DNA from: Sulfurimonas sp.
GTDB taxonomy: Bacteria > Campylobacterota > Campylobacteria > Campylobacterales > Sulfurimonadaceae
Length of the DNA: 11,425 nt
Reading direction: 5' to 3'
NCBI GenBank assembly: GCA_002733155.1
Contig: NVUO01000027.1
Coordinates: forward strand, 8,101 to 19,525
The notes below the pieces were generated by a model. That model saw only the letters and a list, made by a program, of their open reading frames with translations, was not told the DNA's origin and did no database searches. Every line of letters begins with the position of its first letter. Within the stretch, counting starts at the first letter, position 1. Both the position numbers and the translations under genes were made by a program. Of this stretch, positions 2,701 through 11,425 are shown in pieces.

Positions 2701-3759
2701 TTATTTTCTATCAGCTCCAGTTGCCTCAATGATATTTTTGTATCCATCTGCAAGTATTAACTCTGTTAGTTCTTTATTTATATTCATAATCATATCAGGA
2801 CCATGGTATATTAAGCCACTTAAAATTTGAACTAATGATGCCCCAGCTTTTATACGTCTATAAACCTCTTGTGCTGAATCTATGCCACCAACTGAAATAA
2901 GTGTAGTTTTACCATATAATTCTTTTGCTATAGCTTCAAAAATTTCAAAACTTTTTTCTTTAAGAACAGCTCCACTTAAACCACCAATAGACTTTGGATT
3001 TTTAACTAATGAATAATCAATAGTAGTATTAGTAGCAATTATACCATCAGCTCCTTTTTCAACAGCCATAGTAGTCAAAGCTACTGCATCCTCAGCTGTC
3101 ATGTCTGGTGCAATTTTAAGAAGGATTGGTTTATCTGTAATATCTTTTGCTTCTTTAAATAATCTTGTTATAAACTCTTCATTTTGTAAATCTCTTAAGC
3201 CTGGAGTATTTGGTGAAGAGATATTTATAATGAGATAATCACCAAGTTCATGTAAAGACTTAATTAAAGTTATATAGTCATTTATAGCTTCACTCTCAGG
3301 GGTTAGTTTATTTTTACCAATATTTACACCAATAGGTGTAGTAAAAGGGAAACGAGTTTTAAGTCTTCTTTGAACTTTTAGTAGTCCTTCATTGTTAAAA
3401 CCCATGGCATTTTGAATACTCTCTTCTTCAATATGGCGAAACATCCTAGGTTTTGGATTTCCAGCTTGTGCCTTTGGTGTAATAGTGCCAATCTCTGTAA
3501 AACCAAATCCTAAAATTTGCATACCACGAATCATAGTTGCATTTTTATCAAATCCAGCTCCGAGTCCAACTGGGTTATAAAATGTACGACCAAAAAGTTC
3601 TTGACTTAATACATCATTAGTGATAAAATGAGATTCCAAAAAACCATTAAAGGCTATAGGGAAAATATTTGGAATTCTAAGTGCAGTCTCAGCAAGATGG
3701 TGGGCATTTTCAGGTTGTAGTTTAAATAGCCAAGGTTTTATGCTTTGATAATTTATCAT
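2701..3759 (-). CDS. pyrD: Dihydroorotate dehydrogenase (quinone), class 2
   Basis: The 352-residue flavoenzyme oxidises dihydroorotate to orotate with quinone as acceptor, the fourth step of pyrimidine synthesis, at the inner face of the cytoplasmic membrane. Class 2 is shown by the N-terminal amphipathic helical extension (about 1-40, WLFKLQPENAHHLAE), which binds membrane and quinone, and by serine as catalytic base in NISSPNTPGLR (179-189; S182 corresponds to E. coli S175). FMN-contact segments are visible: NPVGLGAGFDKNA (62-74), EIGTITP (89-95), NAMGFNN (117-123), LKIAPD (214-219), ATNTT (242-246) and SVGGIDS (289-295). Length matches the family. It is first in a run with the M16 peptidase (TAA directly followed by ATG). 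The Shine-Dalgarno (AAAGG) lies unusually far, about 15 nt, from the ATG. A minus-strand TATAAT at 3791-3796 probably drives it. Confidence 0.97.
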   Translation of the reverse strand: MINYQSIKPWLFKLQPENAHHLAETALRIPNIFPIAFNGFLESHFITNDVLSQELFGRTFYNPVGLGAGFDKNATMIRGMQILGFGFTEIGTITPKAQAGNPKPRMFRHIEEESIQNAMGFNNEGLLKVQRRLKTRFPFTTPIGVNIGKNKLTPESEAINDYITLIKSLHELGDYLIINISSPNTPGLRDLQNEEFITRLFKEAKDITDKPILLKIAPDMTAEDAVALTTMAVEKGADGIIATNTTIDYSLVKNPKSIGGLSGAVLKEKSFEIFEAIAKELYGKTTLISVGGIDSAQEVYRRIKAGASLVQILSGLIYHGPDMIMNINKELTELILADGYKNIIEATGADRK

Positions 3760-3890: not shown

Positions 3891-4313
3891 ATGCATTATT
3901 TTAATAAAGTTAAACTAGGTCAAAAAGTTTTTAGTATTATTTATGGAAAAGGCACAGTTATATTTACCTTACCAAAAGAGCATAGGTTGGATGGTTTTTA
4001 TGTATTTGCAGCTCAGTATTCAAAAAAAAATAGAGTATATTATACAATAGATGGGTTTCCAAACTGGTCAGATAAAGAGTTTGCTTATCAAAGTGTTTTT
4101 TATAAAGATGATATTGATTTTGCAGATATGGATACTCAAGATGTAAGTAAAATATTATCACAAAAACAAATATTAAAATATAGAGATAGGAGTGAGTTAG
4201 AAATTCAATGTCCATCAGGTCTTTGGCGTAATGTTGATGAAGTACCAGAGAGTTTAATGAAAAAAGCTTGTAATAAATCACAATTTCATTTATTTAGAAA
4301 AGAGACTACTTAG
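3891..4313 (+). CDS. Uncharacterised 140-residue protein, possible beta-barrel (KOW/Tudor-like) domain
   Basis: I do not recognise a named family. The protein is soluble, with no signal peptide or membrane segment. The N-terminal half (about 7-75) has the look of a small beta barrel: LGQKVFSIIYGKGTVI (9-24), a strand FYVFAAQY (36-43), then YTIDGFPNW (51-59) and QSVFYKDDID (67-76). The pattern 'G-x-x-V-x-S-x-x-x-G-x-G-x-V ... Y-T-x-D-G' resembles small phage and bacterial proteins that begin 'V-W-s-x-x-x-G-x-G-x-V' and are often called KOW/Tudor-like; this is pattern resemblance, not a proven match. The C-terminal half (85-140) is charged and probably helical. The start is well supported by a strong Shine-Dalgarno and a near-consensus promoter. 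The gene is monocistronic and faces the HAD phosphatase gene tail to tail. A9 at 4022-4030 lies inside it. Confidence 0.85.
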   Translation: MHYFNKVKLGQKVFSIIYGKGTVIFTLPKEHRLDGFYVFAAQYSKKNRVYYTIDGFPNWSDKEFAYQSVFYKDDIDFADMDTQDVSKILSQKQILKYRDRSELEIQCPSGLWRNVDEVPESLMKKACNKSQFHLFRKETT

Positions 4314-4349
4314 TATATTAATTATTTAATTAAAGTTAATACTTAGTAG
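4306..4349. terminator. Imperfect inverted repeat between convergent genes, possible bidirectional terminator
   Basis: Outer arms 4306-4321 (CTACTTAGTATATTAA) and 4336-4349 (TTAATACTTAGTAG) pair imperfectly. Inside them is a perfect palindrome TTAATTA-TT-TAATTAA (4318-4333). The structure spans both stop codons and fills the 22-bp gap between two convergent genes, the place for a shared terminator. G+C content is very low, so the hairpin is weak. Confidence 0.3.
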
Positions 4350-4914
4350 CCTTGTCCGCCAAGGCTAACATAGCATCATCTCCAGCACTATCTCCATAAA
4401 CATATATTGTATTGAATTGTTCTAAATTAAGATGTTTTTTTATACGATTTACTTTTTCATCTCCATAACAATTTTTAGTTAAAAACTTACCAGTAATCTT
4501 AGAGTTTATAAATTCTAATTCTGTACAAAGAAGCTCTATAGAGTTTTTATCACACCAAGGTTGTAGCCAAGATTTCATAGATGCTGAAACTATTATAACC
4601 CTATCACCATTTTTTTGGTGTTTCTTAAGTATCTCTAATCTATCTTTATTTATCAGCTTATCTAGTATTTTTAAAGAGTAGTTAGATGAAATTTGTTTAA
4701 ATTCCGCCTCATCCATTCCAGCATAAAAAGTTTCAAATAATTTCTCTTTTGATATATCGTTTCTTAGCAGTTTTAGTTTGTACATAATGAAATAAGGTAA
4801 AAACTTAAACATACTTAGTAAGTATTTTTCTCTGTTTACACTATACTTCAAAAATTCACTTAAAGAATCCTTTTTTGTTAGAGTACCATCAAAGTCAAAT
4901 AAGGCTAAATTCAT
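4336..4914 (-). CDS. HAD-superfamily (subfamily IB, PSPase-like) phosphatase, candidate phosphoribosyl-polyprenyl-phosphate phosphatase
   Basis: A 192-residue HAD phosphatase. Motif I is DFDGTLT (D7 nucleophile, D9 acid/base), motif II is VSAS (S110), the motif III lysine is K154, and motif IV is GDSAGDD (174-180; D175, D179). A helical C1-type cap (about 15-95) lies between motifs I and II. All catalytic residues are present. It is last in the six-gene arabinose-lipid run: its ATG overlaps the GT gene's stop (TAATG) and has a good GGAG Shine-Dalgarno 7 nt upstream. The mycobacterial pathway needs removal of the 5-phosphate of phosphoribosyl-polyprenyl phosphate between the UbiA and DprE1 steps; there a PAP2-type protein (Rv3807c) has been proposed. 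I infer that this HAD protein does that job here. From memory, proteins fusing a HAD domain to a UbiA domain occur in other Proteobacteria, which would support this. Fold certain, substrate inferred. Confidence 0.9.
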   Translation of the reverse strand: MNLALFDFDGTLTKKDSLSEFLKYSVNREKYLLSMFKFLPYFIMYKLKLLRNDISKEKLFETFYAGMDEAEFKQISSNYSLKILDKLINKDRLEILKKHQKNGDRVIIVSASMKSWLQPWCDKNSIELLCTELEFINSKITGKFLTKNCYGDEKVNRIKKHLNLEQFNTIYVYGDSAGDDAMLALADKATKY

Positions 4915-6398
4915 TATCTTTCTCCATTATAATATCTATCATTAAAATAACATTCACCAATGGGCAGCCAATCTGGGATATTATAAAACTTTTCTTTTTG
5001 AATATCTAAATAAAGTTTTTTATACATATCATATTTGAAATTTTTACACTCAGCTGAATAAAATTTAGCCTTATTTATATCTATTTGTTTAGTGCTAAAT
5101 GTAGTACAAACATTTTCTAAAGTTTTTGCTTTTATTTCTTTTTTATCAAAAAGAATTATATCTTTGTTTTTTAACTCTCTTACATCCAATAGTTTATCAT
5201 CTAAGCGTCCATATTTTGATGTAGAAAATAAAACAAGTACATCTCTTTTACAATGATAAGAAAGAATTGAAGCTGTAGAATAACCAAAGGTGAAAATTCT
5301 TTTTTCACTTAGTTTATCTAGTTGTTCACAGACTTTTTGTGTTTGAGTAAACATAACTACATCTGAGTATTTTTTATGATTTTGAAGTAATGATTTTGGC
5401 AAAAATATAAGAATTAGCAGGATAGCTATATGTAAAAAAGTAAAAATAATATTATATTTAAATACCTTAGATAATATTTCTTTGTCTAAAAAGTAAAAAA
5501 GTAAAAACATATATGGAGTAAAAAGTAAAAACCAGTGAAGACCTATACTTTTTTTAAGGGATACTATAAAGAAAATACTAAAGGAAAGTACTAATATAGA
5601 TAATAAAAGTTTTAGTAGTTTGGAGTTTTCAAATTTACTCTTAAATAGATAATATAAACCCCATGGTGTAAAAATATAAGACATAAGTAAAAAATATCCA
5701 AGTACAGTTTTTATATTGTAGATAGTATTTTCAGTCCTTGCAAAGAAGTTAAACATTATGTTATTCCAACAAGAATTGTAGTTAAAATAAAGGTTTTGAA
5801 ATATGAAAACAGATATAACTATGCTAACTAAAATAATATTTTTTATAGCCTTTTTTTTGTAAACAATTAAAGCAAATATTAAAAGACTTAACATTAAAAA
5901 AACTGCAAAATACTTACTTAAAAATGCTAAACCTAAGAATATACCAGCAAGCAAGGTATTAAAAAACCATTCTTTTTTTTCTAATGAATAAAGTAAAAAT
6001 AAAGTCCCTAAAGAACCAAATAACAATAACGGAATATCATTTGTCATAAGAGATAAAAGTATATCCACTGGTGAGGCTAAAAAAATCATAGATACATATA
6101 ATGATTTATTTTTGTCTTTTGTGTAAAGAGTAGATATTTTATAAATTATAAATGCTGTAACTATAGTTGTGAAAACTGAAAACAGCCTAAATAACACATA
6201 AGAATCATTTAAAAAACTTAAAAGATAAATTACCCATGCAACCATTGGTGGATGGTCATAATAACCAGAGGATAAGTTTTGAGCCCATTTGATAAAGTAT
6301 GCCTCATCCCCAGTTAGAGGTAAGAAAGTAAGTATAATAATCTTAAATACAAAGATTATAAATAGAGTTATAAACTCTTTTTTATATAGATTTATCAT
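4914..6398 (-). CDS. GT-C membrane glycosyltransferase (GT39/GT83-like), candidate arabinosyltransferase
   Basis: A 494-residue polytopic membrane enzyme of the PMT/ArnT class, which transfers sugar from a polyprenyl-phosphate donor on the periplasmic side. After the first membrane helix (8-27) comes the class signature: GDEAY (30-34, D31 the expected catalytic acid of the first periplasmic loop) and GYYDHPPMVAW (45-55). Roughly a dozen hydrophobic helices extend to about residue 336, and a soluble, probably periplasmic C-terminal domain of about 155 residues follows. The start codon overlaps the SDR stop (ATGA), and no real Shine-Dalgarno is seen, so translation probably depends on coupling. 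Its place directly after DprE1/DprE2 homologues mirrors AftA (Rv3792) after Rv3790-Rv3791, and recalls TfpW, the GT-C arabinosyltransferase for Pseudomonas type IV pilins. Donor inferred from context as polyprenyl-phosphoryl arabinose; the acceptor (LPS, pilin, flagellin, other glycan) is unknown. Confidence 0.9.
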   Translation of the reverse strand: MINLYKKEFITLFIIFVFKIIILTFLPLTGDEAYFIKWAQNLSSGYYDHPPMVAWVIYLLSFLNDSYVLFRLFSVFTTIVTAFIIYKISTLYTKDKNKSLYVSMIFLASPVDILLSLMTNDIPLLLFGSLGTLFLLYSLEKKEWFFNTLLAGIFLGLAFLSKYFAVFLMLSLLIFALIVYKKKAIKNIILVSIVISVFIFQNLYFNYNSCWNNIMFNFFARTENTIYNIKTVLGYFLLMSYIFTPWGLYYLFKSKFENSKLLKLLLSILVLSFSIFFIVSLKKSIGLHWFLLFTPYMFLLFYFLDKEILSKVFKYNIIFTFLHIAILLILIFLPKSLLQNHKKYSDVVMFTQTQKVCEQLDKLSEKRIFTFGYSTASILSYHCKRDVLVLFSTSKYGRLDDKLLDVRELKNKDIILFDKKEIKAKTLENVCTTFSTKQIDINKAKFYSAECKNFKYDMYKKLYLDIQKEKFYNIPDWLPIGECYFNDRYYNGER

Positions 6399-7126
6399 AT
6401 ACTCAATTTTTTGAAAATAAATTCGGGTATATTTTTTATGATTAGCATAATTAAAAACCAGATTGATTTTGTATAGAGTATATTTTTGCCAGCTTGTTGA
6501 GCCTTATATATATCCTCAGCTACATCTATAGGTTCAGCTGTTAGTCTTTCAGGTAAATGTAGTTTCTGTGTCATTTTAGTAGCTACAAAACCTGGTTTTA
6601 CTGTTAAAACACTCACTCCAGATTTAAATAATCTATTTCTTAGACCACTTAAATAAGAAGAAAAAGCAGCCTTAGCACTTCCATATATATAATTAGCTTT
6701 TCTACCACGGTCACCAGCAACGGATGATATACCTACAATAAAACCACGTCTTTCTTTCTCAAAATCATTTGAAATTATATTTAAAATACTTACAGCGCCA
6801 GTATAATTGACATTTATAGTATTTAAACATTCCCCCCAATTCTTTTGAGCTATTTTCTGTTCAGTCATGTATCCAGATACTATTATAACTCCAAGAGGTT
6901 TTTCACTTAATTGCTCATAAAAACTCTTATGAGTATCATAGGCAGTAATATCAAAGTCTAAAATTTGTACATTTACAGCTGAACGAACTTCTATATCTGT
7001 TTTTAGCTCTGATAAATCAGATGAAGACCTTGCGCATAGATAAAGGTTATAACCATTTTTTGCATATGTACGTGCAATCTCTTTTGCTATATCACTTTTT
7101 GCGCCTATAATTAAAACATAACTCAT
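6395..7126 (-). CDS. dprE2: DprE2-like SDR: polyprenyl-phosphoryl-2-keto-ribose reductase
   Basis: A 243-residue short-chain dehydrogenase/reductase. The start chosen is ATG at 7124-7126: it has GGAG 7 nt upstream and puts the Rossmann strand at the N-terminus (MSYVLIIGAKSDIA) as in homologues. A longer open frame to 7171 would add 15 residues with no family match and a 44-nt overlap into the upstream gene. Seen: cofactor loop GAKSDIA (8-14), NVNYTG (105-110), catalytic S134/S135, Y148 and K152 (YGSAK), and PGF (178-180). The C-terminus has a hydrophobic stretch (about 221-236) that should bind membrane, as expected for a polyprenyl-lipid substrate. In mycobacteria DprE2 reduces the 2-keto intermediate made by DprE1 to polyprenyl-phosphoryl-arabinofuranose using NADH. 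The gene sits directly after the DprE1 homologue (1-nt gap) and overlaps the GT gene by 4 nt. The symbol rests on context and similarity. Confidence 0.88.
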   Translation of the reverse strand: MSYVLIIGAKSDIAKEIARTYAKNGYNLYLCARSSSDLSELKTDIEVRSAVNVQILDFDITAYDTHKSFYEQLSEKPLGVIIVSGYMTEQKIAQKNWGECLNTINVNYTGAVSILNIISNDFEKERRGFIVGISSVAGDRGRKANYIYGSAKAAFSSYLSGLRNRLFKSGVSVLTVKPGFVATKMTQKLHLPERLTAEPIDVAEDIYKAQQAGKNILYTKSIWFLIMLIIKNIPEFIFKKLSI

Positions 7127-7127
7127 T

Positions 7128-8420
7128 TTATATCTCCACTCTTTTTGATTGTAATGAGTTGAATTTTTCACTCATATTATTTTTTTCTCTAAAGTCTCTA
7201 AATTTTTGTATATTTGGATAACCTAACTCAAAAGTCTCTTTTGATACACGTACATCTTTAGTTAAATATATACGTCCATTATATTTAACTACTATTTTAT
7301 CAAGTTCATCTAAAAGCTCAAATAAGCCGTTTTCTATTTTAAAGTCTAATGCTAATGAATAGCCCTCTATTGGAAATGAAAGAAAGTTTTTATTCTCTTT
7401 TCCATATAGTTTTAAAACAGCTAAAAATGAGCCTTTCCCACTTTGTGATATCTTAGTTAAAATATTTTGTAGACCTTCAAATGAATTTTCTTTTGGAAGT
7501 ATAAATTGATACTGGGTAAAACCATTTTTACCATATATACGGTTCCAGTTTTTTATAGAATCAAGGGGGTAAAAAAAACTGTCTATGGAAACTCTTTGTT
7601 TTGAAATTCCATTTGCTGCTTTTGCATAATAAAGCCAGTTAAAGGCTTTTACACTTAAGTTGTTTAGGGCAAATGAAGGAAAGTTAAATGGTATATTTAA
7701 TTTGCTTTTACTTTTATAGTCTAAGTCCCCATCATCATCAAAGTCACCTAACATTAATAAACATTTACCAAGATTAGCACCTTGGGCTAAGCAGTCTATC
7801 CAAGCAACTGAATACTGAAATTCTTTAAAAGATTCAAAGGCCTCAAAAGTCTCTTTTAGGTTTGTAGTTTTTACTGTAGTTTGTTTTATAAACTGCGAGT
7901 TTATTTTTTTTAAAGATATACAAGCTTCTAAAATAACTCCAGTAAGACCCATACCACCACAAGTAGCAAGAAATAATTCACTTCCAGCTTTAACAGTCTC
8001 TATGTCACCATTAGCTAACATGATTTTAAACTCTGATACACATTTGGAAAAGCAGCCCTCTATGTGATGGTTTTTTCCGTGAACATCTGAGGCTATAGCT
8101 CCGCCAATAGTTATAAGTTTAGTACCAGGGCTAACTTTTAAAAACCAGCCACGTTGTACAAAACTTTCTAAAATTTCAGATAATAATACTCCAGCTTGAC
8201 ATCTAAGTATGCCATTTACTTCATCGAATTCTAAAAAGTTGTTATAGTCCTTGCAGTATAAAATTTTTTCATTTATAGCACTATCACCATAACTGCGACC
8301 ATTACCAAATGATATAAATTCTTTAGTTTTTTTTATATATTCATAAAGTCCTGATACACTTTTTAAAGATGTTTTGTTATTTTGTATCTTTGGATACATG
8401 CCCCAGCTAAATAAACTCAA
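7128..8420 (-). CDS. dprE1: DprE1-like FAD-dependent oxidase: polyprenyl-phosphoryl-ribose 2'-epimerase subunit
   Basis: A 430-residue flavoenzyme that would oxidise the 2'-OH of polyprenyl-phosphoryl-ribose, the first half of epimerisation to arabinose. FAD-domain segments match mycobacterial DprE1 closely: FGNGRSYGDSA (38-48), SPGTKLITIGGAIASDVHG (97-115), KNHHIEG (116-122) and TCGGMGLTGVILEA (153-166). H114 and K116 correspond to Mtb H132 and K134. In the substrate domain K337 and K388 correspond to K367 and K418. At the benzothiazinone-target position (C387) the residue is Ala (A357); the spacings to both lysines (20 and 31) equal those in Mtb. The start is TTG at 8418-8420 with AAGGA 6 nt upstream; the ATG seven codons later would remove the family's conserved N-terminal 'WG' motif (FSWG, 4-7). 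It is two bases from the GtrA gene and one base from the DprE2 gene. Confidence 0.93.
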   Translation of the reverse strand: MSLFSWGMYPKIQNNKTSLKSVSGLYEYIKKTKEFISFGNGRSYGDSAINEKILYCKDYNNFLEFDEVNGILRCQAGVLLSEILESFVQRGWFLKVSPGTKLITIGGAIASDVHGKNHHIEGCFSKCVSEFKIMLANGDIETVKAGSELFLATCGGMGLTGVILEACISLKKINSQFIKQTTVKTTNLKETFEAFESFKEFQYSVAWIDCLAQGANLGKCLLMLGDFDDDGDLDYKSKSKLNIPFNFPSFALNNLSVKAFNWLYYAKAANGISKQRVSIDSFFYPLDSIKNWNRIYGKNGFTQYQFILPKENSFEGLQNILTKISQSGKGSFLAVLKLYGKENKNFLSFPIEGYSLALDFKIENGLFELLDELDKIVVKYNGRIYLTKDVRVSKETFELGYPNIQKFRDFREKNNMSEKFNSLQSKRVEI

Positions 8421-8422
8421 AT

Positions 8423-8824
8423 CTAGTCCTTTTTTTCATCTGTAAATACAAACTTTTTATCTAAAAAGTATTTTACTAAATAACCAATAGCAAGACCTAT
8501 AATCCCACCTAGATATTTAGCATTTTCATCTTCAAAAATATAATCAAAGCCAATCTCAAAAGCCCAAAATATGAGTGTAGTAAATATGCCCATAAGTGAG
8601 TAAAGCATAAACTTTTTACCATCATCTTTTTTACTTTTTGGAGTATGAAAAAAGATATATTTTTTATCTAAAATGTATTTTAACACAAGACCAGCTAGTG
8701 TACCTAAAAACATAGCTAAGTATAAAGATAAAACACCATCGTAGATTAAAAAACTAAGGTACTGGACAGCTATATTTAGTATAGTTGAGAGTAAGGCAAA
8801 TAGGGCGTATTTAAGTACTATCAT
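8423..8824 (-). CDS. GtrA-like four-helix membrane protein
   Basis: A 133-residue GtrA-family (PF04138-type) inner-membrane protein with four hydrophobic helices (about 5-28, 34-52, 72-92, 103-121). An internal duplication is visible: KYILDKKYIF (49-58) and KYFLDKKFVF (118-127) close each two-helix half, typical of the family. Family members are linked to flipping or presenting polyprenyl-phosphate sugars. Mycobacterial Rv3789, the gene before dprE1, is GtrA-like and has been proposed either to flip decaprenyl-phosphoryl-arabinose or to act as a scaffold for AftA. The same position before the DprE1 homologue here suggests the same job. Its ATG overlaps the UbiA gene's stop (ATGA) and no Shine-Dalgarno is visible, so reinitiation after UbiA translation is likely. 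Family firm; flippase versus scaffold unresolved. Confidence 0.9.
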   Translation of the reverse strand: MIVLKYALFALLSTILNIAVQYLSFLIYDGVLSLYLAMFLGTLAGLVLKYILDKKYIFFHTPKSKKDDGKKFMLYSLMGIFTTLIFWAFEIGFDYIFEDENAKYLGGIIGLAIGYLVKYFLDKKFVFTDEKKD

Positions 8825-9687
8825 ATAAGTTTAGCTATAGCTATAAAACTTAAAAGCCAAAAGAAAATGGTTAGTTTCATAAATGTGTCTTTTATAACTA
8901 CCTTAGTTGGACTACTACTATTTTCTTCAACAAATGTTATTTGCATATAACGTAGTACACCAAGGATAACAAAAAATGAAGTTAGGTAAAGATAGTTAGT
9001 ATTAAGTCTACTTATAACCTCAGGGGAGATAGTGTATTGTATATATGAGACTATAACTACACCAGCCATAAGTACCATAGCTGCATTTACAAACTCTAAA
9101 TTATAACCATCTATATTTTTGCGCGTCTCTTGTCCAGCTAAGGATAATAATACATCATCCCTTCTTTTTGCTAAAGCCAAAAATATTGCAAGTAAAAATG
9201 TCATAATAATTATCCACATTGATAAGTCTATATTTGTAACTGCACTTCCTGCAAACAGTCTTAAAACAAAACCAGTAGCTATAATGAAAATATCTAAAAT
9301 TGAGATATGTTTTAGTTTTAAAGAATATAAAATATTTAAAATAAAATATATAAGTAAAACTATAAATAGTTTTATACTTATAAACAATGAAAGGCTTAAA
9401 GATATAAAAGATAGAGTAAAAATGAATAATTTAGCTTTTGTTTTTGAAATACTTCCCGATGCAAGGGGGCGATTTTTTTTTGTAGGATGTGCCCGATCTT
9501 CATCTATGTCCATAAGGTCGTTAAATATATATATTGAAGAAGCAAGTATAGAAAATAAAACAAAAGCAAGTATGGTATTTATATTATCTGTAATATTAGA
9601 AAAAGAGAAAGAAAAAAGTAATGGCATAAATATAAATAGGTTTTTTATATATTGATGTACTCTAAATAGTTTAAAAACTTCTTTCAA
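8821..9687 (-). CDS. UbiA-family 5-phosphoribosyl-1-phosphoryl-polyprenol (DPPR) synthase
   Basis: A 288-residue polytopic prenyltransferase, with eight or nine hydrophobic helices, that would move phosphoribose from PRPP to polyprenyl phosphate, the committed step of the pathway. The DPPR-synthase branch of UbiA is recognised by the N-terminal FRVHQYIKNLFIFMPL (8-23), the first Asp-rich motif NDLMDIDEDRAHP (56-68) with KKNRPLASG (70-78), the second motif YSLKLKHISILD (121-132) and the loop AKRRDDVLL (173-181). This resembles mycobacterial Rv3806c and not menaquinone, haem or ubiquinone prenyltransferases. The start is TTG (9685-9687) with AGGGA 7 nt upstream; no suitable ATG or GTG gives the family's N-terminus. 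It is first gene of the six-gene run, with a candidate -10 at 9717-9722. A T9 run (9473-9481, A9 in the coding sense) falls at the TKKN codons of the active-site loop. Confidence 0.92.
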   Translation of the reverse strand: MKEVFKLFRVHQYIKNLFIFMPLLFSFSFSNITDNINTILAFVLFSILASSIYIFNDLMDIDEDRAHPTKKNRPLASGSISKTKAKLFIFTLSFISLSLSLFISIKLFIVLLIYFILNILYSLKLKHISILDIFIIATGFVLRLFAGSAVTNIDLSMWIIIMTFLLAIFLALAKRRDDVLLSLAGQETRKNIDGYNLEFVNAAMVLMAGVVIVSYIQYTISPEVISRLNTNYLYLTSFFVILGVLRYMQITFVEENSSSPTKVVIKDTFMKLTIFFWLLSFIAIAKLI

Positions 9688-9861: not shown

Positions 9862-10659
9862 ATGAATAAAGTAACTGCTACTGTACTTTATGTAGAAAAT
9901 GATTGTGATATAAGAAAAGGAATTTCTGCATACCTTAGTTATAAGTTCACAAATATTATAGAGGCTAAAGATGCAGAGATTGCATATCAGCTTTACCAAG
10001 CGAAAAAACCTGACTTGATTATTACAGATATCAATTTAGGTAAATTCAAAGGGATAGAACTTATACAAAAAATTAGAAATATAGATAAAAATATTCCAAT
10101 AATCATTACTAGTTCATATTTTAAAAAAGATAAATTACTTAAAATCGTTAACCTAAATATTATTGATTATATTATAAAACCTATAGAAAAAGCAACATTG
10201 CAGTTTGCATTAGATGTAGCTGTATCTCAAATATTATCAATGACTGATAATAGTCAAACTATCGTAGAACTTGAGTTTAATAAACTTAAACAAATATCTA
10301 GGATAAAAAAAGAACATGCATGTGCTGTGTTTATTAATATCAATAATTTAAGTCTTATTAATGACGCATTTTCCTTTAATTCTAAAAGTGAATTAATTAA
10401 AATATTTTTTGAAGCATTAGTCTTAAGTGTTAAAAAGAATGATTTAGTTGTGCCTTTGATGGGTGATACTTTTTTAATATTATTGCTAGATAGTTCCTTA
10501 TATAAAATAGAACAGCTTACAAATAAAATAAAAAATAAAATAAAAAACATTGAGATTAATGGTTATAGGAATTTCACATGTACATGCTCTATGGAATTTA
10601 TAAATCATGACGATAGTTTATATGAAGTCATTAATAGACTTAAAGAAAAAAATAATTAA
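9862..10659 (+). CDS. Response regulator with a degenerate GGDEF output domain
   Basis: A 265-residue two-domain cytoplasmic protein. The N-terminal receiver domain (about 6-122) has phosphoacceptor D56 (LIITDINLG), E12 in YVEND (the second acidic metal ligand is N13), the switch residue T83/S84 (IITSS) and conserved K107-P108. The C-terminal half (about 150-262) follows the diguanylate-cyclase fold: AVFININNLSLINDAF (155-170) matches the usual 'F-x-D-I-D-x-F-K-x-I-N-D' segment, but the acidic metal ligand is missing (FININN), and the GGDEF signature reads MGDTF (200-204). The usual C-terminal 'A-D-x-A-L-Y-x-A-K' is replaced by DSLYEVINRLKEK. It should therefore not make c-di-GMP, and more likely works through binding. 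Shine-Dalgarno AGGGA lies 4 nt before the ATG. The next gene encodes a periplasmic sensor, a likely partner. Confidence 0.9.
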   Translation: MNKVTATVLYVENDCDIRKGISAYLSYKFTNIIEAKDAEIAYQLYQAKKPDLIITDINLGKFKGIELIQKIRNIDKNIPIIITSSYFKKDKLLKIVNLNIIDYIIKPIEKATLQFALDVAVSQILSMTDNSQTIVELEFNKLKQISRIKKEHACAVFININNLSLINDAFSFNSKSELIKIFFEALVLSVKKNDLVVPLMGDTFLILLLDSSLYKIEQLTNKIKNKIKNIEINGYRNFTCTCSMEFINHDDSLYEVINRLKEKNN

Positions 10660-10687
10660 TAAAAGAATATAGTTAAATAAAATAAGT

Positions 10688-10693
10688 TATAAT
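10688..10693 (+). promoter_or_regulatory. Candidate -10 box for the sensor gene
   Basis: TATAAT lies 25-30 nt before the GTG start, in the 58-nt gap after the response-regulator stop. There is no clear -35, so read-through from the upstream gene is equally possible. Confidence 0.3.
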
Positions 10694-10717
10694 TAAATTT
10701 TTATAAGGGTAATTTCT

Positions 10718-11425
10718 GTGGGTTATTTAAAGCTGATATTTTTGTTGTTTCTATTTATTTTACTTGAGGCAAAGGCTAACAAGTTAGGGACTATACAAAT
10801 CCTTGACAATACTAGTATATTGATATTAAGTGATGAAGAACATAAATATTTAGAGAAAAAAAAAGAGATAAAAGTTTGTGTAGATCCAAGTTGGTTGCCC
10901 TTTGAAAAACTTCAAAATGGAAAATATATAGGAATGAGTGCCGATTATTTCAAAATATTTGAAAAAAAGATTGGGATAAATTTTAAAATTATACAAACAA
11001 AAAATTGGAGCCAATCTGTTGAGTTTGCAAAACAAAGAAAGTGTGATATATTTTCTTTAGTTATGCAGACAAAAAATAGAAAAAAAAATATGAATTTTAC
11101 AGATCCATATATAAGTGTGCCCCTTGTAATAGCTACTACCCACGATAAGTTATTTATATCAAATATAGATGATATCTTAAATAAAAAGATAGGAATCACA
11201 AAAGATTATGCATTTATAGAGATACTAAAAGCTAAGTATCCAAGTATAAATCTAGTAGAAGTTAGTTCAGTTGATGATGGTTTAGAGAAATTAATTAATG
11301 GTGACTTGTATGCTTTTATTGATAATCTAAGCTCAATTGCATATAAAATTCAAAAAAGTTATATTGGTAGACTTAAAATTGCTGGACAAATTGAGGAGAA
11401 ATGGGAACTAGGCATTGGTGCTAGA
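10718..11425 (+). CDS. Periplasmic solute-binding-domain (SBP_bac_3) sensor protein, 5' part only
   Basis: An open frame of 236 codons that continues beyond the window end. The start is GTG (10718-10720) with AAGGG 8 nt upstream; the next in-frame ATG comes 72 codons later, inside the domain. Residues 1-20 are a signal peptide (GYLKLIFLLFLFILLEAKA), so the domain is periplasmic. LSDEEHKYLEKKKEIKVCVD (37-56) followed by PSWLPFE (57-63), then DYF (76-78), CDIFSLVMQT (109-118), MNFTDPYISVPLVIAT (125-140) and KIGITKDYAF (157-166) are typical of SBP_bac_3 (PF00497-type) modules, especially those with the 'L-x-x-E-E-x-x-Y-L' lead-in that sit in membrane histidine kinases and diguanylate cyclases, not ABC transporters. 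The missing 3' part should hold further sensor, kinase or GGDEF domains. The adjacent response regulator is a plausible partner. Ligand unknown; amino acids or similar small solutes are usual. Confidence 0.88.
   Translation, partial: MGYLKLIFLLFLFILLEAKANKLGTIQILDNTSILILSDEEHKYLEKKKEIKVCVDPSWLPFEKLQNGKYIGMSADYFKIFEKKIGINFKIIQTKNWSQSVEFAKQRKCDIFSLVMQTKNRKKNMNFTDPYISVPLVIATTHDKLFISNIDDILNKKIGITKDYAFIEILKAKYPSINLVEVSSVDDGLEKLINGDLYAFIDNLSSIAYKIQKSYIGRLKIAGQIEEKWELGIGAR

Follow-up and report, generated by a model that had tools for sequence, protein, structure and literature searches.

Three-component pentofuranose systems have been described as widespread (PMC11127046), and DprE1/E2 homologues were reported there in candidate systems where arabinofuranose (Araf) glycans occur; the systems of Citrobacter share the lipid entry point and deliver ribofuranose (Ribf) or xylofuranose (Xylf). 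Among Gram-negative counterparts studied with mutants, the rhizobial noeCNHOP operon (Agrobacterium pusense IRBG74; noeCHOP in Azorhizobium) is the closest; in it, deletion of noeP abolishes, and deletion of noeN lowers, the arabinose on Nod factors, the other noe genes not having been singly deleted in that study (PMC5080398). In IRBG74 and in Sinorhizobium alkalisoli, genes in the order UbiA-GtrA-DprE1-DprE2-hypothetical lie near nod genes (in IRBG74 beside nodA, nodB, and nodC), and by this order and place the IRBG74 genes are the noeCNHOP operon. Here, we analyze an operon with the same order, UbiA-GtrA-DprE1-DprE2-transferase, in an 11,425-nt stretch of DNA of Sulfurimonas sp., a marine sulfur oxidizer (contig NVUO01000027.1, 8101-19525), the whole of which is referred to as the window.

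In our opinion, it is highly probable that this operon makes polyprenyl-phosphoryl-D-arabinofuranose and passes the D-arabinofuranose (D-Araf) to some acceptor of the envelope. At the level of sequence, there is good support for the donor pathway from homology, from gene linkage, and from the counterpart with mutant data. The search of open-licence literature (listings by words) found no report of a D-arabinose donor pathway in Campylobacterota; as far as this literature shows, this is a known kind of system, extracytoplasmic pentofuranose addition, in a new phylum, and the polyprenyl-phosphoryl-D-arabinose pathway is extended to Campylobacterota. The operon is compact, with an assignment for each step between phosphoribosyl pyrophosphate (PRPP) and the transfer of the sugar that could be tested in marine bacteria amenable to cultivation.

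Organization of the operon

The original prediction, made from the window alone, placed six tightly packed genes at 4336..9687 of a Campylobacterota-like genome. By its nearest kin the host belongs to the genus Sulfurimonas (assembly of 2.29 Mb, 84% complete), and all six open reading frames (ORFs) were found where predicted, with a single correction, namely the start of DprE2, which we place at 7126. The six identities proposed at that time agree with the Pfam and NCBIfam families, the best PDB matches, and the catalytic residues:

8821..9687, minus strand: UbiA-type polyprenyl-phosphate 5-phosphoribosyltransferase (DPPRS/PPPRS; counterpart of NoeC and Rv3806c), 288 aa, TTG start, PF01040
8423..8824, minus strand: GtrA-family membrane protein (Rv3789-like), probable flippase for the lipid-linked sugar, 133 aa, PF04138
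7128..8420, minus strand: DprE1-like flavin adenine dinucleotide (FAD) oxidase (C2 oxidation of polyprenyl-phosphoryl-ribose), 430 aa, TTG start, PF01565 (FAD_binding_4)
6395..7126, minus strand: DprE2-like short-chain dehydrogenase/reductase (SDR), 243 aa from the inner ATG, open frame up to 7171, PF00106 (adh_short)
4914..6398, minus strand: GT-C glycosyltransferase with ArnT-like fold, probable D-arabinofuranosyltransferase, 494 aa, PMT_2 (PF13231)
4336..4914, minus strand: HAD-IB phosphatase, probable polyprenyl-phosphoryl-5-phosphoribose phosphatase, 192 aa, PF12710

Read from 9687 to 4336, neighboring genes overlap by 1-4 nt or are separated by 1-2 nt: UbiA and GtrA overlap by 4 nt (8821-8824), GtrA and DprE1 are 2 nt apart, DprE1 and DprE2 are 1 nt apart (taking the inner ATG at 7126 as the start), DprE2 and GT-C overlap by 4 nt, and GT-C and HAD by 1 nt. 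The GTG start listed for DprE2 at 7171 is an upstream extension. As the longest DprE2 frame has 243 aa in 20 of 21 loci of relatives (L016-L025 and L062-L072; L numbers denote the loci compared in this work), the same as the frame from 7126, the 44-nt overlap of DprE1 and DprE2 is an artefact created by the listing of the ORFs. The order UbiA-GtrA-DprE1-DprE2-GT-C-HAD was found again in many relatives, and since it recurs there with the catalytic residues retained, it is not a product of chance.

Proposed synthesis of the lipid-linked donor

The UbiA protein found mycobacterial DPPRS in PDB by sequence (8j8j, E = 9.8e-33), a chain of a different kind first appearing at 8.5e-9. On the NCBIfam models PRK12324.1-2, it scored 220 bits, under the cut-off of 234; on PRK08238 (UbiA family) it reached 187.9 against 351, and on PRK12884 (prenyltransferase), the best model of another reaction type, 65.6. 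In the residue counts given here and below, the rows come from loci of relatives picked by similarity to the window. The residues N56, D57, D60, and D64 are retained in 53 of 54 rows (the remaining row has a gap) and correspond, as mapped by motif and not by alignment of ORF15 itself, to N247, D248, D251, and D255 of Citrobacter ORF15, which were mutated by Kelly 2024 (PMC11127046). It is well supported by these sequence comparisons that the protein would be a polyprenyl-phosphate phosphoribosyltransferase.

Removal of the 5-phosphate would then fall to the HAD enzyme, which scored 119.2 bits on TIGR01490 (cut-off 98.3) and whose motif residues are retained in 31-35 of 35 rows (Asp7, Asp9, Asp175, and Asp179 in 34-35). 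HAD-UbiA fusion proteins are encoded next to DprE1 in a locus of Actibacterium (L046) and one of Azospirillum (L104), and in Citrobacter a HAD domain fused to UbiA strips the 5-phosphate (PMC11127046). On account of these fusions and of the Citrobacter precedent, along with linkage, the separate HAD protein of the window is likely the 5-phosphate phosphatase of the pathway. In Thiomicrorhabdus, a DUF212 (divergent PAP2) protein is encoded between UbiA and GT-C (L039:6164-6634), and it is possibly a further type of phosphatase for this step.

The next two enzymes would change the sugar itself: DprE1 with FAD would oxidize C2, and DprE2 would reduce it again, now in the inverted configuration, so that the D-arabino sugar results, as homology and the conserved active sites suggest. 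In PDB, the FAD protein matched DprE1 with an E-value of 3.9e-70 (first FAD enzyme of another kind, 6.5e-6). Its counterparts of the DprE1 inhibitor contacts His132, Gly133, Lys134, Gln336, Lys367, and Lys418 (PMC6128881), i.e., His114, Gly115, Lys116, Gln305, Lys337, and Lys388 by alignment to 4aut with numbers mapped by motif, are retained in 58-59 of 59 rows. The DprE2 protein had DprE2 (21gq_C, E = 4.3e-28) as the only distinct PDB sequence at or under the limit of 1e-15, and its Ser150, Tyr163, and Lys167 (counted from the GTG start) are retained in all 51 rows.

Curated families gave a divided answer: the GtrA protein passed its model (NF037976, 173 bits against 50), but DprE1, DprE2, and DPPRS remained under the NCBIfam cut-offs. 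The FAD protein scored 371.6 bits on NF053785, whose equivalog cut-off of 500 is reached by none of the 298 sampled genomes of the phylum and, among 14 control genomes, only by Corynebacterium glutamicum; judged by these scores, it is classed as a DprE1-like homologue and not as an NCBIfam equivalog. DprE2 scored 174.1 on NF053786 (cut-off 250) and passed PRK07102, named merely SDR family oxidoreductase (344.9 against 267), as did its IRBG74 counterpart. The noe operon of IRBG74, which is 43% identical to the window in DprE1, 44% in DprE2, 42% in GtrA, and 30% in UbiA, served as a control, and its DprE1 (401.2/500) and DprE2 (192.4/250) were under the cut-offs, too. The IRBG74 UbiA was under the three PRK12324 models shown, yet, unlike that of the window, it passed PRK08238 (390.9/351). 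For DprE1 and DprE2, the comparison bears on what the scores mean. As these two homologues of the noe operon also miss the cut-offs, the latter do not decide function, and it should be mentioned that, in the noe mutant study (PMC5080398), the DprE1 and DprE2 genes were not themselves deleted.

The low scores are one of the points that could speak for a lipid-linked sugar other than D-arabinose, i.e., for another product of the SDR and FAD enzymes or for ribofuranose delivered with the epimerase idle, as might be expected from the Ribf or Xylf delivery of Citrobacter (PMC11127046). A further point weighing against D-arabinose is that the window has Ser355 and Ala357 where DprE1 has Asn385 and Cys387. 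However, both halves of the epimerase are encoded side by side with their catalytic residues retained, their best PDB matches are DprE1 and DprE2, and the IRBG74 operon, with its 43-44% identity in these two proteins, is associated with arabinose, so that we consider another sugar very unlikely. Alanine stands at the place of Cys387 in 54 of 59 rows; in the Mycobacterium tuberculosis enzyme, this cysteine is the covalent target of benzothiazinones and is dispensable for activity (PMC6128881). Because of this replacement, these homologues are not expected to form covalent adducts with benzothiazinones.

In the host genome (84% complete), no protein other than GtrA exceeds the PF04138 cut-off, and GtrA is the probable flippase, which may aid the passage of the D-arabinose lipid to the periplasmic side, as linkage, fusion, and precedent suggest. 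A role in serving a GtrB-type glucosyl donor was considered and rejected, as its neighbors are a phosphoribosyltransferase and DprE1 and the operon has no GT2-type sugar transferase. This bears on noeN, which was put forward in 2016 as the missing phosphatase (PMC5080398). The gene between UbiA and DprE1 on the IRBG74 plasmid (L105:6582-7004) codes for a GtrA-family protein (NF037976, 147.6 bits; 42% identical to that of the window), which suggests that noeN, equated with it by gene order and not by locus tag, encodes a GtrA protein and no evident phosphatase. Membership in this family and the only partial phenotype of the deletion fit a flippase better than a phosphatase.

The GT-C transferase and its putative acceptor

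The GT-C protein had no PDB sequence match at E-values up to 1, none to AftA, and no BLASTP match at E-values up to 0.01 to the transferase of IRBG74 (NoeP). The best fold match of its model over most of the length was ArnT (model residues 3-452, 12% identity), and with ArnT it shares the GT-C fold and the PMT_2 domain type.

Among 37 Sulfurimonas genomes, a GT-C orthologue (over 500 bits; next match, 118 bits) was present in all 11 that bear DprE1 and in none of the 26 that lack it (Fisher 1.2e-9, uncorrected for kinship and with some genomes incomplete); the six DprE1-bearing genomes outside Sulfurimonas are without it. Ca. S. baltica GD2 (DSM 111898; PMC9789136) encodes a GT-C that is 65% identical to that of the window. 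As the GT-C and DprE1 strictly co-occur in this genus, D-Araf is the likely sugar transferred. The ArnT-like enzyme would give it to an acceptor of the envelope, the most likely single candidate being a sugar of lipid A or of the lipopolysaccharide (LPS) core, which is our leading guess but a doubtful one.

With the same donor pathway, the GT-C could instead decorate a protein (flagellin, pilin, or another glycoprotein) or a side chain of an O-polysaccharide, to which we give a chance a little short of even. Type IV pilin (PMC12369383) and Nod factors (PMC5080398) are among the acceptors known for D-Araf, and Araf side chains of polysaccharides were reported along with DprE1/E2 homologues (PMC11127046). 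Moreover, structures of Pmt4 and of the oligosaccharyltransferase (OST) type also match the GT-C model. Gene neighborhoods elsewhere in the genus point the same way. A second group of Sulfurimonas operons occupies another site, which in L064 lies near MotA, MotB, and FliP genes (the L064 operon also adjoins two further PMT_2 proteins, GT9, PAP2, LPG_synthase_TM, and a sulfatase-family protein), and the second copy in Sulfurimonas aquatica (L065) is clustered with genes for Wzt_C, several sugar transferases, and Bac_transf. On the other hand, neither a glycosyltransferase gene nor one for pilin or flagellin was recognized among the other genes of the window or up to the DJ-1 gene beyond it (partly by eye), ArnT is the best fold match, and the window model is without the added C-terminal beta domain of the L065 GT-C and of Citrobacter ORF12 of GT136 (there a C-terminal carbohydrate-binding module, CBM).

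The original prediction had also pointed to the likeness of the internal gene order to Rv3789-Rv3792. The order GtrA-DprE1-DprE2-GT-C indeed resembles the mycobacterial arrangement, which might hint at a mycobacterium-like arabinan polymer. The order stands; the GT-C recalls Rv3792 only in its position, as it has no AftA match and its fold is nearest to ArnT. The operon has one GT-C, the host genome has no second orthologue of it, and a PMT_2 search there gave just two other matches, one of them under the cut-off (other arabinosyltransferase families were not searched there). We therefore rejected the arabinan polymer as extremely improbable, on the grounds of the single GT-C and of the lack of sequence matches to solved arabinosyltransferases.

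Returning to lipid A or LPS core as the acceptor, a bolder form of this guess, which we hold to be somewhat more doubtful still, is that the window GT-C would be the founder of a new family attaching D-arabinofuranose to lipid A or to the LPS core in abundant marine sulfur oxidizers, a D-sugar counterpart of the L-Ara4N (4-amino-4-deoxy-L-arabinose) addition by ArnT, while in one genome a second, unrelated GT-C would draw on the same donor module for O-polysaccharide. More generally, our data hint at a modular scheme, in which a conserved donor module is paired with differing GT-C transferases.

Two further candidate transferases were encountered. In S. aquatica, a 649-aa GT-C is encoded beside the second DprE1 module (L065:11521-13470), which GT-C has a beta domain at its C-terminus and matches no Pfam family; 19 proteins, itself included, were related to it at E-values up to 0.001 among 8000 candidates scored, and two of them were named Vibrio. 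In Bacteroidota loci L028 and L036, a protein of about 400 aa (50% identical between both, no Pfam match) is encoded between DprE2 and HAD and may be another arabinosyltransferase; a GtrA gene was not detected there with the window GtrA as a query.

Distribution of the operon and its chromosomal sites

With DprE1 as a query, matches at E-values up to 0.001 were found in 52 of 60 relatives, 17 of them strong (over 600 bits); the weaker ones, of at most about 60 bits, mostly resemble other FAD enzymes by length and region. UbiA matches (E-value up to 1e-10) occur in the same 17 genomes as the strong DprE1 matches (likewise uncorrected for kinship and with some genomes incomplete). Of 298 genomes sampled from the phylum, 13 have DprE1 homologues, and these belong to 8 of 58 genera. 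The predicted polyprenyl-phosphoryl-D-arabinose pathway has withstood the comparisons of homology, active sites, and co-occurrence, all of them made in silico.

DprE1 homologues were also found on 64 plasmid records, 34 of them of Rhizobium. In a first tree of DprE1 (58 rows, short search, no bootstrap), the Campylobacterota rows were intermixed with some rows of Bacteroidota, Gammaproteobacteria, and desulfobacteria. For the clade tests, L025, L046, L051, and L052 were dropped and the IRBG74 row was added. With 55 rows (32 against 23 outsiders), a single Campylobacterota clade was rejected (p-AU 0.0082); it was not rejected (p 0.5) when eight of the 23 outsiders, four of them isolates, were kept, every one of the 15 omitted having metagenome-assembled genome (MAG) in its title. 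As the rejection vanishes without these 15, the case for horizontal transfer rests on metagenome bins.

One further gene marks the chromosomal site of the operon:

2701..3759, minus strand: pyrD (dihydroorotate dehydrogenase), PF01180, outside the pathway and flanking the site

In six Sulfurimonas loci read (the window, L062, L063, L066, L067, and L068), the operon is bordered by a DJ-1/PfpI gene and pyrD, and in four of them extra genes intervene. Ten genomes lacking the operon had a pyrD match, and of the nine read, DJ-1 is upstream of pyrD in seven and directly adjoins it in four. Since most of these genomes keep DJ-1 before pyrD, this interval is a site of gain or loss. The stretch before pyrD carries differing inserts across Sulfurimonas, such as signaling genes or the arabinose operon (window 9862-11425, L060:1962-6197, L097, L098, and L100), and is like a small insertion hot spot.

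On the pyrD side of the operon, there are a 140-aa ORF, pyrD, and genes for M16-peptidase-like, methyltransferase-like, and Crp/Fnr-like regulator proteins; the 140-aa ORF (3891-4313, plus strand) is convergent with the operon and has no Pfam match. On the opposite side, there are a response regulator with a GGDEF domain, a sensor kinase with a solute-binding domain, another response regulator, and an ORF of 315 aa (these last three were assigned in part by eye), followed by the DJ-1 gene. Promoter-like sites (45 against 41.1 expected from shuffled sequence) and terminator-like sites (2 against 1.8) were not in excess.

Comparison with known systems

The window encodes together a phosphoribosyltransferase, a phosphatase, GtrA as a putative flippase, and a GT-C, which are the elements that define a three-component system. 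With the systems of Citrobacter youngae (PMC11127046) it shares the UbiA phosphoribosyltransferase, HAD phosphatase, flippase, epimerase (present there in the O2 type of system), and extracytoplasmic GT-C. In Citrobacter, however, HAD and UbiA form one protein, the flippase is EmrE/ArnE-like (called MATE), and the GT-C has a C-terminal CBM, whereas in the window HAD is separate, GtrA is the flippase candidate, and the GT-C is without a domain of the CBM type.

The noeCNHOP operon, for all its common order, differs in the transferase, which has no detectable similarity to the window GT-C and no Pfam match, in the lack of an annotated HAD gene in the operon, and in its acceptor, a lipo-chitooligosaccharide. 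The mycobacterial decaprenyl-phosphoryl-arabinose (DPA) pathway (Rv3806c, Rv3807c, DprE1/DprE2, Rv3789, and AftA) has a homologous synthase and epimerase, whose catalytic residues are conserved in the window. The pilin arabinosylation of Pseudomonas paraeruginosa (PSPA7_6245-6251, TfpW) is also a Gram-negative D-Araf system, encoded on a genomic island and with pilin as the acceptor (PMC12369383). Finally, ArnT has the GT-C fold in common with the window transferase, while its donor is L-Ara4N, made by another route.

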